A program made the position numbers and the translations under genes. From NCBI GenBank assembly GCA_902596545.1, contig CACJUH010000002.1:124001-188000 (forward strand): a stretch of 64,000 nucleotides of DNA, given 5' to 3'. This document shows positions 38,608-43,885 of the stretch, in pieces (positions within the stretch are counted from its first letter, which is position 1; each line of letters starts with the position of its first letter). The notes beneath the pieces were generated by a model, which worked only from the letters and a program-made list of their open reading frames with translations, was not told the DNA's origin and did not search any database. Source of the stretch: an uncultured Candidatus Actinomarina sp. (GTDB taxonomy: Bacteria; Actinomycetota; Acidimicrobiia; Actinomarinales; Actinomarinaceae).

Positions 38608-39432
38608 CTAAACTTTTATTTCTCTACCTTTAATTATCCTTCTTCTAATAGCCGCAGAAATTGTATCTACGATTAACACCATAAGTATTGTTACTACTAA
38701 TACTGTGCCTGCTCGAGGAAAATCTCTAAAACGTAATTGATTAATTAATTCTGCTCCAACACCACCTGCACCAACAACGCCTAAAACTGCAGATGCTCTT
38801 AAATTAATTTCAAATCTATATAACCAATAAGATGTTATTGTCGGCATAACTTGTGGTATTACTCCAAAAAAAAGTTCATTTAACTTGCTACCGCCAGAAG
38901 ATTTGATCGATTCGAGAGGACCTTCATCAATTCCTTCAATCACTTCAGAAGATAATTTTCCTAATGTACCAATAGAATGTATTCCAACAGCTAATGTTCC
39001 AGTTAAAGGACCAAGTCCTGTTATAGGTAAGAGCACAAAAGCTAAAATCAATTCAGGAAAAGCTCTAATTACATTAAGTACCTGTTTAGTTACTCTGCTG
39101 AAAGAATTTAAAGAAACATTATTAGCTGCTAAAAAAGATATTGGAAAACTAAATATTGCGCCAATTACAGTTCCAGCCCAAGCAATGAAAAGGGATTCAC
39201 CGACTTTTGGAACTATTCTGTCAATAGCCTCTTGTGATAAATCTAGAGGGAACATTGCAGTTACAAGTATCCAAACCTTACTAGGAGCTGTTAAAAATCT
39301 CTCTGGTGTAATCTCCAGACCTGAAGCGGACCAAATTGATCCTGCAACAATTAAAACTGTTATTAGGTACTTTAATATTCTTTGATTTATCGGTTGTTTA
39401 GGTATGTTCATAAAATTTTTCTTCTTAACCAA
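38608..39432 (-). CDS. phnE: Phosphonate/phosphite-type ABC permease (PhnE), second copy
   Basis: A 274-residue permease with about six predicted helices. The EAA-type loop is in EGIDEGPLESIKSSGGSKLNEL, followed by VLGVVGAGGVGAELI, both typical of PhnE. Two tandem, different permease genes are usual in phn transporters. The start lies 25 bases inside the preceding permease gene. Together with phnC and phnD it should import an organophosphonate, phosphite or similar anion. No C-P lyase is adjacent, so the imported compound is uncertain. Confidence 0.88.
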   Translation of the reverse strand: MVKKKNFMNIPKQPINQRILKYLITVLIVAGSIWSASGLEITPERFLTAPSKVWILVTAMFPLDLSQEAIDRIVPKVGESLFIAWAGTVIGAIFSFPISFLAANNVSLNSFSRVTKQVLNVIRAFPELILAFVLLPITGLGPLTGTLAVGIHSIGTLGKLSSEVIEGIDEGPLESIKSSGGSKLNELFFGVIPQVMPTITSYWLYRFEINLRASAVLGVVGAGGVGAELINQLRFRDFPRAGTVLVVTILMVLIVDTISAAIRRRIIKGREIKV

Positions 39433-40193
39433 ACGCTAAATTGTTCGATAGTAATTACTGCTACAAGAATTAAAACAATTATTGGCGATATTCTATCAAA
39501 CCTTAAGAAGATTCTTTGGGTCTCAATTATCCTACCTACACCACCAGCACCAACTAGTCCTAAAATAACGGATGCTCTAATACAAAGTTCAAAAATATAT
39601 AAAAAATAAGCTGTAAAGTTTGGAAGAATTTGTGGAAGTGCAGAAGTAAAAACAGCTTGATTGTGTTTAGCACCACTTGCTTTAGCTGCTTCCAAAGGTC
39701 CTAGATCAATACTATCAATTGTCTCTGATAATAATTTCCCCATGATTGCCATAGAAAACATTACTAAGGCAAGTACTCCTGCAAATGGCCCTAACCCAAC
39801 AGCAACTGTAAAAAGCATTGCCCAAAATAAGTCTGGAATAGTTCTAATGAAATTAAGAAAAGATTTATAAATTAAATAAGTAACTGTTGTTTGATTAGTT
39901 GCCCTAGATGCATAGAAAGAAAGAGGTAAAGCAATAAAACAACCAAGAATACTCGCGAGAATTGCAATCTGTATAGTTTCTAGTAAAGCTTGAGAAGCAT
40001 TTTCGATTGCCCATTCCCACTTAGGGTTAAATAATGTATCTGTTACAAGTTTTCTATTTTCCCAATTTCTTTTGAAGTCTTCTATATTAAATCCAACTTG
40101 AAAAAAAGAAAAAATAGTCAGGGCAATAGCGAATGGATAGCCAATTACTGTTAGTAAAGAAGGTAAAGGCTTCTTGGGTACTTTAATCATCAT
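39408..40193 (-). CDS. phnE: Phosphonate/phosphite-type ABC permease (PhnE), first copy
   Basis: A 261-residue permease, homologous to the next one and likely forming a heterodimer with it. It has the N-terminal membrane helix (about 12-30), FIRTIPDLFWAMLFTVAVGLGP, the EAA loop DLGPLEAAKASGAKHNQAVF and VILGLVGAGGVGRIIE. It overlaps phnC by 11 bases on its start side and the second permease by 25 bases on its stop side, so the three genes are translated together. Confidence 0.88.
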   Translation of the reverse strand: MMIKVPKKPLPSLLTVIGYPFAIALTIFSFFQVGFNIEDFKRNWENRKLVTDTLFNPKWEWAIENASQALLETIQIAILASILGCFIALPLSFYASRATNQTTVTYLIYKSFLNFIRTIPDLFWAMLFTVAVGLGPFAGVLALVMFSMAIMGKLLSETIDSIDLGPLEAAKASGAKHNQAVFTSALPQILPNFTAYFLYIFELCIRASVILGLVGAGGVGRIIETQRIFLRFDRISPIIVLILVAVITIEQFSVWLRRKIL

Positions 40194-40953
40194 CTCCTAA
40201 TAAATCCGAAGATTTTATTGCTCTACCATAAATATTTTCAAAATCTTTATCGCTAACATCGTTAACTTTACCGTCGTACACAAGTTCTCCATCTTTGAGA
40301 CCGATTAATCTTTCACCAAATTCTTTTGCGAGGTCTAAAAAATGTAAATTAACAATTGTCGTAATGCCTAGTTCCTGGTTTATCTCTTTTAAGTACTTCA
40401 TTACAACCCTAGAGGTTATGGGATCCAATGATGCTACCGGTTCATCTGCTAACATCACTTTGGGTTTTTGTGCAAGAGCTCTAGCAATTCCTACTCTTTG
40501 TTGCTGACCACCTGACAAATTCGATCCTCTAACGTATGCTTTTTCTAATATTTCTACTTTGTTTAATGATTCAAATGCAATTTCTTTATCATCTTTCGGC
40601 CACAATCCAAATATAGAACGAAGTGAAGAAACTTGGCTTAATCTTCCGGTTAAAACATTTTTTAATACAGATGATCTATTAACTAAATTGAAAGTCTGAA
40701 AAATCATTCCTATATCTGATCTAATAATTTTTAGTTCTTTTTTTGAGGCATTGGTAACATTTCGAGAATCAACAATTACTTCTCCTTCAGTGGGTTTCAC
40801 TAAGTTATTAACAGTTCTTAACAAAGTTGATTTACCCGCTCCAGACATACCTACAATGATGACAAAGTCACCCTCATCTATATCCAAAGAAACATTATTT
40901 AATGCTTTTACTCCACCAGGGTATGTAACACTTACGTTTTTAAATTCAATCAT
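40183..40953 (-). CDS. phnC: Phosphonate/phosphite-type ABC ATPase
   Basis: A roughly 256-residue ATPase that powers the PhnE permeases. Walker A is GMSGAGKSTLLR, the Q-loop is FQTFNLV, the ABC signature LSGGQQQRVGIARAL, Walker B VMLADEPVASLDP and the His switch VNLHFLD. ATG 40953 (M-I-E-F-K) is preferred; an in-frame TTG at 40962 lies in the T-rich tail of the preceding terminator. No Shine-Dalgarno is visible. It is separated from phnD by the strong hairpin at 40966-40997. Confidence 0.92.
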   Translation of the reverse strand: MIEFKNVSVTYPGGVKALNNVSLDIDEGDFVIIVGMSGAGKSTLLRTVNNLVKPTEGEVIVDSRNVTNASKKELKIIRSDIGMIFQTFNLVNRSSVLKNVLTGRLSQVSSLRSIFGLWPKDDKEIAFESLNKVEILEKAYVRGSNLSGGQQQRVGIARALAQKPKVMLADEPVASLDPITSRVVMKYLKEINQELGITTIVNLHFLDLAKEFGERLIGLKDGELVYDGKVNDVSDKDFENIYGRAIKSSDLLGDDD

Positions 40954-40965
40954 AATTTTCAAAAA

Positions 40966-41004: not shown

Positions 41005-42126
41005 TTAGTCGTCGTAAAGACCAAATTCTTCAGCTGCTTCTCTAACCACATCAAACTCTGAGTTTTCTGCAGGTACTAAATCAGTCCATCCATAAATTTC
41101 ATCCATTATGGCTCTTCCTTCTTCAGTAGCAATGTATTCAGCTAAAATATCATAAATTTGCTGTTTAATATCTTCAGGCAAATCTGTTCTAACTGCAATC
41201 ACATCATTTGGTATTTCTTCTGTAATTGCAAATGCTATGACCTTTTCACCTACATCAGCATTTGTTTTTCTTAATGTTCTTCGTGCGTCATCATATGTAA
41301 CACCAAACTTAGCATCACCATTATAAAGACCAGCAATAACACCATCATGTGAACCAGCAAATCTTTGAGTTATATCACTTGTATAATCTATACCTGCTTT
41401 TTTAAGTTGTAGAGATGGATATAAGTATCCTGATGTTGAACCTTCTTCAACAAAAAGTACTTCCTCTCCCAACATAACAGAAAGATCTGCTTCGCAAGCA
41501 AGTCCAGGACTAGTTGTAACACCGTCTCGAACTTCAGGGATTAACCCAGAATCACCAAATCCCCAACCTACTTGTAGAGCTTTTACATCAGGTGGAGTTG
41601 TTTCTGAACCAGTTACTAGAGTTGGTACACCATTGATATTTTCAAAAGCACCTATAACTGGTGGAGAATCACAAATACTTGCGTCTGTTGTCCAGAATGT
41701 TCCGTGATACGATCCAGAACCATACCTTACTGATTTAGCAATTGCTTCAAATCTTCTTGGAAATGCTTCCATTGCTGTTACATAACCTAAAGTTGCAAAA
41801 GCACCTACGTCAGCTTGACCAGATCCCATTGCAACTAGTAGACCTGAGTAGTCACTTGTTACAAATCCTTCGACTTCAATACCCAAACCATCAGTCAAAA
41901 CTTTCATCATTGGTTGAATGTTGTCTAATAATTCGGCTTGTTCCGCGCTAGGTACAAAGCCAAAAACAATTTTATCTAAAGTTGGCGCAGCAGTAGTTGC
42001 TGGAGCCTCTAAAGTTTCGACTTCTTCCGTAGCAACGGGTTCTTCTACAGTCTCTTCAGAAGAGCCACCACAAGCAGTAGCTACTAATGCAAGACAGAGT
42101 AGAAGTAGTAATGATTTTTTCATCAT
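41005..42126 (-). CDS. phnD: Phosphonate/phosphite-type ABC binding lipoprotein
   Basis: A 373-residue PhnD-family lipoprotein. A signal peptide with lipobox LVATAC (Cys19) is followed by a short Glu/Thr/Ala-rich linker. The mature part has FGFVPSAEQAELLDNIQPMM, YSGLLVAMGSGQADVGAF and LQVGWGFGDSG, matching periplasmic phosphonate/phosphite-binding proteins. A GGAGG sits on the minus strand just before the start; ATG 42123 may be the real start, since it is better spaced. The ligand is not certain. Confidence 0.87.
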   Translation of the reverse strand: MMKKSLLLLLCLALVATACGGSSEETVEEPVATEEVETLEAPATTAAPTLDKIVFGFVPSAEQAELLDNIQPMMKVLTDGLGIEVEGFVTSDYSGLLVAMGSGQADVGAFATLGYVTAMEAFPRRFEAIAKSVRYGSGSYHGTFWTTDASICDSPPVIGAFENINGVPTLVTGSETTPPDVKALQVGWGFGDSGLIPEVRDGVTTSPGLACEADLSVMLGEEVLFVEEGSTSGYLYPSLQLKKAGIDYTSDITQRFAGSHDGVIAGLYNGDAKFGVTYDDARRTLRKTNADVGEKVIAFAITEEIPNDVIAVRTDLPEDIKQQIYDILAEYIATEEGRAIMDEIYGWTDLVPAENSEFDVVREAAEEFGLYDD

Positions 42127-42187: not shown

Positions 42188-42643
42188 TTAAAAATTTGTA
42201 AACTTTATTTCGCCAAAATCTCTAAAAATTACTTCACCATTTGTATCTAGAATTAAAGTTATAGGCTGTCCGACTACTTTAAAATAATCTCTTAATTGAG
42301 GAGTGGAAAAACCAATTCTTAATTTACCTTCTAAGTTTTCATCTACCCACTCTAAAGTTGGACCATACTCACTGTGAGCAAGAGCAATAACATCATATTC
42401 TTCTTGTAGATTTTCTAATTCAGCTTCTAGGACAGGCAACTCCTGTCTACAAACACTTCAGTAATCTGCCCAGAAGACAATTATTGTTTTTTTGTTTGTG
42501 AAGTCTTCAGAATCTTCAACAAGATCTGAATTTATAAATGAAAAAGAGCTATCCGAAACTACATTAACGGGTTCTACACTTTCAACTTCAGCACCCTGTG
42601 AACAGGCTATAAAAACGAGTAAAATTAATATAAATCTTTTCAT
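42188..42643 (-). CDS. TlpA-like thioredoxin-fold lipoprotein with in-frame TGA at the first redox Cys (candidate selenoprotein)
   Basis: One continuous frame of 151 residues if the TGA at 42458-42460 is read as an amino acid. A signal peptide with lipobox FIAC (Cys14) leads to a thioredoxin fold: IIVFWADY, then TGA at residue 62, S-V-C65, RQELP, and a cis-Pro loop VVGQPITLILD (Pro127). TlpA proteins have W-C-x-x-C-R at this point, so TGA replaces the first Cys and would give U-x-x-C. A SECIS-like hairpin follows at 42431-42447. TGA is a normal stop elsewhere (rseP, xerC, truB). It lies between phnD and cinA. If Sec is not inserted, only a 61-residue fragment is made; a Cys-to-stop mutation or base error is the alternative. 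Confidence 0.7.
42431..42447 (-). promoter_or_regulatory. SECIS-like hairpin after the in-frame TGA
   Basis: On the minus strand, GACAGG (42447-42442) pairs perfectly with CCTGTC (42436-42431) around the loop AGTTG. The loop begins 16 bases after the TGA. Bacterial SECIS models call for a 16-37-base distance from UGA to the loop and a G among the first two loop bases; both hold, and the loop contains GU as in E. coli fdhF. Two extra pairs form if one C is bulged. It lies inside the coding frame. Confidence 0.6.
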
Positions 42644-42691
42644 GAAATAATCATAATATGATTGAATAATAACTTTGCTAATGTGAATACT

Positions 42692-43885
42692 GTGAATATA
42701 GCACTATTAAGCGTTGGTACAGAATTATTGTTAGGTGATACTGTTAACACAAATCTATCGTCTCTAGGCCAAACACTTTACAACAATGGTTTTATATTAT
42801 CTTCTGAAGTTACTGTACCTGATAAAAAAGAAATCATAAAAGACGAATTCTTAAAATTATTCGATAAAAATGATGTAATTATTTCATGTGGGGGAATTGG
42901 CCCAACAGAAGATGATTTTACAAAAGAAGTTATTTGCAGTGCTTTAGAGATAGATTTAGAAGTTGACGAAGAGCACTTATCTTGGATGAAATCTAGATGG
43001 GAAGCAAGAGGTTTCACTATGCCAGAAACAAACATAAAACAAGCTCAAATCCCTGTGGGATCAACAAAATTGATCAACTCTCAAGGAACAGCTCCAGGGA
43101 TACTAATAAAACATAGTGGAAAATATATTTTTATTCTTCCTGGTCCTCCCAGAGAATTTAATCCTTTAGTAATTGATGAAGTTGTACCTTTATTAAAAGA
43201 TAATTTTTCCGCTACTAATAAAGAATATGAGTTTGTTTTATTTTTTAATCAAGCAGAATCATCATTAGCTGAAGAAATTAATAAATTTAAACCTGAAGGA
43301 TTAGATTTAGCTTACTTAGCAAGTAAAGGAGTTATTAAACTCAGATATGATAAAAATTCAATCGATGAAGTTAATCTAAAAGAATTTTTAACTCGTTTAA
43401 AAGATACCTTTAAAGATTCAATAATTGGTTATCAAAACATTCCTGCTTCTAAAGCTTTATTTAATTTATTGAAAGAAAAGAATTTAACTTTATCTTTAGT
43501 CGAAAGCATAACGGGAGGTAACTTATCTTCTGAAATAATAAATTACCCTGGTGCTAGTTCAATATTATTAGCTGCGAATACTCTATATTCTAATGAAGCT
43601 AAGAAAGAATACCTTTCTGATGATATTTCAGATGATTGGGAGACATTGTCTAAAGAACTTTCTGAAAAATCAATTAAAAAGCATAAATCTTCAATTTCTC
43701 TAGCCATACTCGGGGAAGCAGGGCCTATTCCTTCAAGTAATTACAAAATTGGAGAAATATTTATTGCAATTTCTAACAATAAACAAACAGTAAATTTCTA
43801 CCATAAATTAAGGGGTAGCAGAGAAGATATTATTAATAGAGCAGTAAATAATGCAATTTGGGACCTAATTAATTTTATTAAATAG
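42692..43885 (+). CDS. cinA: CinA-like nicotinamide mononucleotide deamidase
   Basis: A 397-residue CinA. The N-terminal molybdopterin-binding-like (COG1058) domain has ALLSVGTELLLGDTVNTN, ISCGGIGPTEDDFTKE and FILPGPPREF. The C-terminal NMN amidohydrolase (PncC) domain has LSLVESITGGNLSSEI but is diverged in its later part. GTG 42692 is chosen because it gives the usual start NIALLSVGTE; GTG 42683 and TTG 42662 are in frame upstream. In many bacteria cinA precedes recA, as here, and shares its SOS expression. Confidence 0.87.
   Translation: MNIALLSVGTELLLGDTVNTNLSSLGQTLYNNGFILSSEVTVPDKKEIIKDEFLKLFDKNDVIISCGGIGPTEDDFTKEVICSALEIDLEVDEEHLSWMKSRWEARGFTMPETNIKQAQIPVGSTKLINSQGTAPGILIKHSGKYIFILPGPPREFNPLVIDEVVPLLKDNFSATNKEYEFVLFFNQAESSLAEEINKFKPEGLDLAYLASKGVIKLRYDKNSIDEVNLKEFLTRLKDTFKDSIIGYQNIPASKALFNLLKEKNLTLSLVESITGGNLSSEIINYPGASSILLAANTLYSNEAKKEYLSDDISDDWETLSKELSEKSIKKHKSSISLAILGEAGPIPSSNYKIGEIFIAISNNKQTVNFYHKLRGSREDIINRAVNNAIWDLINFIK

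Follow-up and report, generated by a model that had tools for sequence, protein, structure and literature searches.

A probable selenocysteine-containing TlpA/ResA-like lipoprotein encoded by Candidatus Actinomarina

The tlpA gene described here, located in a stretch of 64,000 nucleotides that was analysed as a whole (the window), almost certainly encodes a selenocysteine (Sec)-containing TlpA/ResA-like thiol-disulfide oxidoreductase, a lipoprotein outside the cytoplasmic membrane in which UGA codon 62 is translated as Sec (Table 1). This reading has its sequence basis in a conserved TGA, in the covariation of a SECIS hairpin, in a full set of sel genes and in the hairpin that is missing from the Cys forms of the family. 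Sec insertion itself, the lipid anchoring, the redox direction and the substrate are points that we infer rather than read from the sequence. In the proposed mechanism, Sec-tRNA would be made by SelA together with SelD, which by its sequence is a selenoprotein itself. The hairpin would then direct SelB and tRNA-Sec to decode the UGA as Sec. Held outside the cytoplasmic membrane by its lipid anchor, the product would use its U-x-x-C pair as a selenol/thiol centre that rapidly reduces disulfides outside the cytoplasm.

Table 1. Position of the predicted tlpA gene, its elements and its neighbours in the window
Feature	Position	Strand	Remarks
TlpA/ResA-like selenoprotein gene (predicted)	42188..42643	(-)	ATG start, TAA stop, 151 residues with TGA read as Sec
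Sec codon TGA, Sec62, first Cys position of C-x-x-C (UxxC)	42458..42460	(-)	
Signal peptide up to lipobox Cys (MKRFILILLVFIAC)	42602..42643	(-)	predicted lipoprotein, by eye
SECIS hairpin (putative)	42431..42447	(-)	stem 42447-42442 with 42436-42431, loop AGUUG 42441-42437
PhnD-type (phosphate/phosphite/phosphonate) substrate-binding lipoprotein, downstream	41005..42126	(-)	TIGR01098 153.7 bits (cut-off 112)
PhnC-type ATPase and two PhnE-like permease ORFs, same transporter	38608..40962	(-)	TIGR02315 339, TIGR01097 245 bits, over cut-off
CinA-family gene, divergent neighbour	42662..43885	(+)	PF02464, PF00994 over cut-off

A first-pass annotation of this DNA had described a frame broken by just one TGA at the first Cys of the C-x-x-C motif, with 89 sense codons and an intact cis-Pro loop beyond it, and re-reading the frame gave the same result. 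From the ATG, 61 codons precede the TGA, and 89 sense codons follow it up to the TAA; the frame is otherwise open. The active-site motif reads FWADY-U-SVC-RQELP, a GQP loop stands at the cis-Pro position, and in alignments A2 and A3 the lipobox cysteine, C14, shows a conservation of 90% or more. If the TGA were a true stop, tlpA would either be a pseudogene or give rise to a 61-residue product and a separately started C-terminal piece, and the ORF listing does contain a TTG-started ORF of 83 amino acids (42439-42188) downstream of the TGA. Such a division would break the thioredoxin fold apart right at the active site. Moreover, the same TGA occurs in 29 genomes of the genus and is followed by codons under purifying selection (median dN/dS of 0.27 in 299 of 406 genus pairs, those with dS under 1.5), and the homologues read include no decayed copy, which bears out the earlier statement that the gene is not decaying. 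With the in-frame covarying SECIS and the complete sel gene set described below, we consider termination at this codon highly improbable.

Of 35 genus genomes, 29 have a strong tlpA orthologue. Each of these orthologues contains exactly one TGA, always in the same alignment column, and Cys at this column was found in none of them. The genomes without a strong match (G002, G016, G019, G027, G028 and G029) are all 60-82% complete, and five of these six have tRNA-Sec. A later profile search gave a match in 35 of the 42 genus genomes listed, each with a TGA; the match in G145 reports a TAA besides the TGA. For a sequencing or assembly error at this position no supporting point was found. With the TGA present in 29 genomes of the genus, a wrong base is very unlikely, and the codon recurs at 19 family loci beyond the genus; we hold the probability of such an error to be negligible. 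The nearest named relative found, uncultured Candidatus Actinomarina sp. isolate AG-447-L16 (96% identity), is a single-cell record, which also speaks against an error. Another named relative is OCS155 cluster bacterium AG-426-D23 (70% identity); the scan behind these two names found 2 loci, and its sole active-site pattern had Cys in place of Sec. A phage collection held no match to tlpA.

The hairpin downstream of the Sec codon has the sequence GACAGG-AGUUG-CCUGUC, with a stem that starts 10 nt after the UGA and a UGA-to-loop gap of 16 nt. Bacterial SECIS elements are described as having a loop of 3-9 nt, a stem of 4-16 bp, a G within the first two bases of the loop, a spacing of 16-37 nt and an MFE <= -7.5 (PMC13188914). 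The tlpA hairpin agrees with these rules (loop of 5 nt beginning with AG, stem of 6 bp, spacing of 16 nt, MFE of -8.7 kcal/mol over 28 nt). Among 200 shuffles, 6 fold equally well, and for a 54-nt stretch 0 of 200 do so. The figures given for stem, loop, spacing and published rules in the first-pass annotation are thus right, and the stem covaries, but as an argument from a single sequence they are weaker than they had sounded: when the codons for this peptide in the window sequence are replaced by synonymous ones, 4.3% of the recodings likewise form six stem pairs, so that the tlpA stem in one sequence is weak evidence. The strength of the hairpin evidence comes from its conservation across the genus and from the rare codons that it retains.

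Among 23 distinct genus sequences, the cells of the 6-bp stem are paired in 138 of 138 cases, compared with 49-71% for sliding stem partners, and RNAalifold predicted the same 6 pairs. Two of the stem pairs show two-sided changes, including a swap from C-G to G-C in 8 of the 23 sequences. Since this swap replaces residues in the protein (Q/R to E, V to L), the RNA pairing has been maintained through amino-acid change. Five measures were compared with 500 shuffles: the cells paired, the cells with two-sided change and the covariation score each exceeded all of the shuffles, and the remaining two, the pairs with two-sided change and the pair types, were matched by 186. The codons of the stem are uncommon for the genome, yet retained. 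At codon +5, CGG accounts for 9 of 9 Arg (1.0% of Arg codons in window genes), at codon +6 GAG for 23 of 23 Glu (21.7%), and at codon +9 GTC for 14 of 15 Val (8.5%) and CTC for 8 of 8 Leu (4.1%), all of these counts ignoring kinship. The loop pattern GGAGTTRCC occurs at 10 sites in the genome to which the window belongs, and a control pattern at 6; of the 10, the tlpA site alone lies in a long open frame with a TGA at the distance expected of a SECIS.

A check of this genome (G000; 1,097,906 bases in 17 contigs, 94.65% complete) for selA, selB, selC and selD found all four. Its tRNA-Sec scores 75.4 bits, with the anticodon tca according to ARAGORN; a second match of 49.2 bits is a tRNA-Leu, for which reason our tRNA-Sec counts are limited to strong matches. 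SelA is over the cut-off with 380 bits. SelB, whose gene adjoins selA, is full length and has SelB-wing_3 over the Pfam cut-off, while it is under the NCBIfam cut-off (196 vs 242 bits). SelD (371 bits; L014, G000:C6:62830-63756) has one TGA in SHGAG-U-ACK, where U corresponds to the catalytic position of E. coli SelD. Both tRNA-Sec (E<=1e-11) and SelD are present in 34 of 35 genus genomes, and each copy of SelD has one in-frame TGA. A SECIS in the selD genes of Actinomarina was sought by eye and none was made out, and the site motif was unmatched in 12 of 30 selD loci.

Alternatively, the UGA could be read as Cys or Trp, by suppression or through a general change of the code, and Cys indeed stands at the same position in 5 relatives from the class. 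TGA is a normal stop in neighbouring genes, though, as had been stated from the start: it ends 6 of the 57 ORFs counted in the window and terminates both selA and selB. The tRNA-Sec of the genome has the anticodon TCA, and if UGA were recoded throughout, a conserved SECIS would serve no purpose. We therefore hold a reading as another residue to be very unlikely and treat the UGA as a Sec codon.

The family to which tlpA belongs extends beyond the genus. NCBI taxonomy places the genus in class Actinomycetes; the class of our genome searches is what we take to be GTDB's Acidimicrobiia. At E<=1e-30, a 14-row profile run against 395 genomes gave 129 matches, spread over 128 genomes, 124 with a TGA and 5 without by a tally of rows copied by hand. 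Outside the genus, 89 of 94 strong matches (E<=1e-30) have the TGA and 5 have none. TGA-flagged loci were read at 21 places outside the genus, and 19 of them, with 21 genes, have the TGA in FWAEW-U-x-x-C. L111 (G057) and L112 (G041) were rejected as family members and left uncounted, being weak matches with the UxxC in other thioredoxin-like proteins and not in FWAEW. They are thioredoxin-like frames in their own right, with the TGA in a UxxC (APHUPTC and APYUVTC, respectively), and their host genomes have tRNA-Sec. At one locus (L171, G236:C62:61100-64000) three Sec-TlpA genes stand in tandem, and G166, G197 and G263, from the same genus as G236, each have three neighbouring TGA-bearing matches.

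All six stem pairs are present in 18 of the 21 Sec genes read in the class, and two others have 5 and 4 pairs; at L169 (G338) the stem is broken, with 2 of 6 pairs, and the TGA is retained. The five Cys forms have TGC at the Sec position and 2 to 4 of 6 stem pairs, and they keep the downstream E-L/M-P motif. Among the homologues read, the position accordingly holds either the TGA or, in these 5 cases, Cys, and decay was not seen in any of them. The gene selA was found in 19 of 20 Sec-form genomes vs 1 of 5 Cys-form genomes (Fisher p 0.002, kinship ignored); the single Sec-form genome without selA is 77% complete, and one of the 20 (G310) was classed by the profile-search table alone. It was present in 0 of 8 genomes showing neither tRNA-Sec nor SelD, which are not independent because they were picked for lacking both. 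A tRNA-Sec of at least 57 bits was found in 16 of the 20 genomes with a Sec form and in 1 of the 5 with a Cys form, in a scoring per genome that took in 111 of the first-look candidates. One genome with a Cys form (G200) retains both selA and tRNA-Sec. In a tree of 49 rows, for which the program gave a long-branch warning and 17 of 46 inner branches are drawn open, Sec and Cys forms group together (99/96), separate from Cys paralogues. With a midpoint root, the Cys forms are nested within the Sec clade and require 3 changes, of which at least 2 are forced, so that Sec is likely the ancestral state.

The AlphaFold2 model of the tlpA product (pLDDT 83.2, pTM 0.74) has a thioredoxin fold with the UxxC at a helix start and a loop at the cis-Pro position. 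Foldseek returned ResA (3c73_A, E 5.6e-10) as the best solved fold and, lower down, pneumococcal Etrx, DsbE/CcmG and TlpA. Among family models, PF00578 (AhpC-TSA) is over its cut-off (28.5 bits, cut-off 26), and the NCBIfam models of ResA (NF002854; 33.8 vs 170 bits), TlpA (NF047696; 29.5 vs 230 bits), StoA and DsbE are all far below theirs. The tlpA gene was nevertheless absent from the results of a PF00578 scan of the genome, which shows that short Sec proteins can escape family scans. Cys thioredoxin-like proteins of the same general kind are also encoded in this genome. Near 103 kb of contig G000:C3 (L127), a bacteriorhodopsin-like gene adjoins DsbB-like and ResA-like thioredoxin genes on the same strand. 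For the tlpA product we infer the role of a lipid-anchored extracytoplasmic thiol-disulfide reductase, which would use a selenol as nucleophile.

A de novo scan for frames with TGA, covering 375,739 bases (the window and 16 stretches, 34% of the genome), found 18 frames that are split by one TGA without overlap by other genes. Three of these make sense, namely SelD, tlpA and an AhpD-like gene, and 15 were set aside by eye. The AhpD-like gene (L186:7953-8525; G000:C3:27953-28525) has its TGA in CEY-U and reaches 129 bits, over a cut-off of 81.8, with the peroxidase-related model TIGR01926, which is listed as a CxxU selenoprotein family (PMC13188914). Its hairpin of -7.0 kcal/mol is just short of the -7.5 rule, and 59 of 200 shuffles fold equally well. 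Judged by its sequence, this CxxU gene is likely a second client selenoprotein of Ca. Actinomarina.

Within the genus, tlpA has cinA as a neighbour at 29 of 29 loci and phnD at 26 of 29. The PhnD-type protein of the window also matches PF12974 (164.7 bits), the cinA neighbour is below the cut-offs of NF001813 and TIGR00200, and the family scan of the transporter covered the ATPase and the first of the two permease ORFs, the second being 38608-39432. Outside the genus, tblastn with the PhnD of the window found no homologue in 10 of 10 neighbourhoods read, on which ground a link of tlpA with PhnD as a general trait was rejected. The putative selenate-binding model TIGR04553 gives 60.6 bits with the PhnD-type protein against a cut-off of 250, and an import of selenate by this neighbour, which would rest on that sub-cut-off match, is speculation. 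In 4 of 10 neighbourhoods from the class (L193, L194, L198 and L199), Sec-tlpA lies within about 6 kb of homologues of ccmF/ccmH/ccmG, for which no match was found in the window or in 16 stretches of its genome. This proximity hints at an old tie of Sec-TlpA to cytochrome c maturation. A tentative and rather unlikely scenario would be that an ancestral, class-wide Sec TlpA lipoprotein from the extracytoplasmic reducing branch around cytochrome c maturation was kept through extreme genome streamlining and re-docked beside the PhnD-type transporter, where it may couple Se-based reduction to the uptake of nutrients or selenium oxyanions. If this were true, selenium would be a required nutrient of the surface-ocean Actinomarina clade.

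Marine bacteria with streamlined genomes generally lose traits that are expensive to keep. The Actinomarina genome of ~1.1 Mb keeps selA, selB, selC and selD. In addition to SelD, it has at least one client gene and probably two, and the retention of both the sel gene set and its clients implies that selenium is used by a marine actinobacterial clade. Gene calling with TGA as a stop would truncate the tlpA product at residue 61. The conversions from Sec to Cys with loss of the hairpin could serve as naturally occurring cases in which to test how the SECIS functions and when lineages abandon selenium.

With ResA, TlpA and CcmG (DsbE), the tlpA product shares a like fold, the layout of Cys/Sec-x-x-Cys and cis-Pro and the predicted extra-membrane anchoring. 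It differs from them by the Sec that would replace the first Cys and by scores below every listed NCBIfam cut-off, and, unlike in these proteins, Gln precedes the cis-Pro in all 14 rows of alignment A3. The WAxxUGC ResA-like selenoprotein (NF041054) is also ResA-like with Sec, but its motif is UGC instead of UxxC, and tlpA scores 18.1 bits vs its cut-off of 300. SaoT (NF040730), which a review table names beside Sao ABC-transporter proteins (PMC13188914), is a UxxC thioredoxin-like protein as well, and the tlpA of Actinomarina also stands beside an ABC transporter. Here the neighbour is of the PhnD type, with a frame free of TGA, and among the 15 NCBIfam families listed the tlpA product has no match to SaoT at E<=1.

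In the open-licence literature we found no paper that connects Actinomarina or Actinomarinales with selenoprotein, selenophosphate or selenocysteine; one paper in which Actinomarina and selenium appear together has passages on selenate reduction in a sister order, and these do not mention Sec. A survey from 2016 lists 'Actinobacterium SCGC AAA015-D07' with an orphan SelD (PMC5029168), an organism whose NCBI placement is no closer than class, and the main text of the deep-Sep paper (PMC12013277) names neither Actinobacteria nor TlpA. The 2008 GOS survey reported 321 Sec sequences of Trx-like 1 (COG0526, UxxC) from 42 samples (PMC2398784), with no occurrence of 'Actinobacteria' in its main text, and the table of a 2026 review contains a thiol-disulfide isomerase-like UxxC family, cd02966 (PMC13188914). 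The first-pass annotation had seen a notable trait in a selenium-dependent TlpA-type lipoprotein of streamlined actinobacteria. The Sec TlpA-like lipoprotein itself is supported, and the trait is less novel because UxxC selenoproteins have already been catalogued from marine metagenomes (PMC2398784, PMC13188914). In the open-licence literature, the kind is therefore already known, as UxxC thioredoxin-like proteins of ocean metagenomes, and its assignment to an Actinomarina host was not found in print. Likened by description, Trx-like 1, cd02966 and the tlpA product are all thioredoxin-like, UxxC-bearing and marine; the catalogued entries are metagenomic clusters, whereas tlpA is placed in the genome of an Actinomarina.
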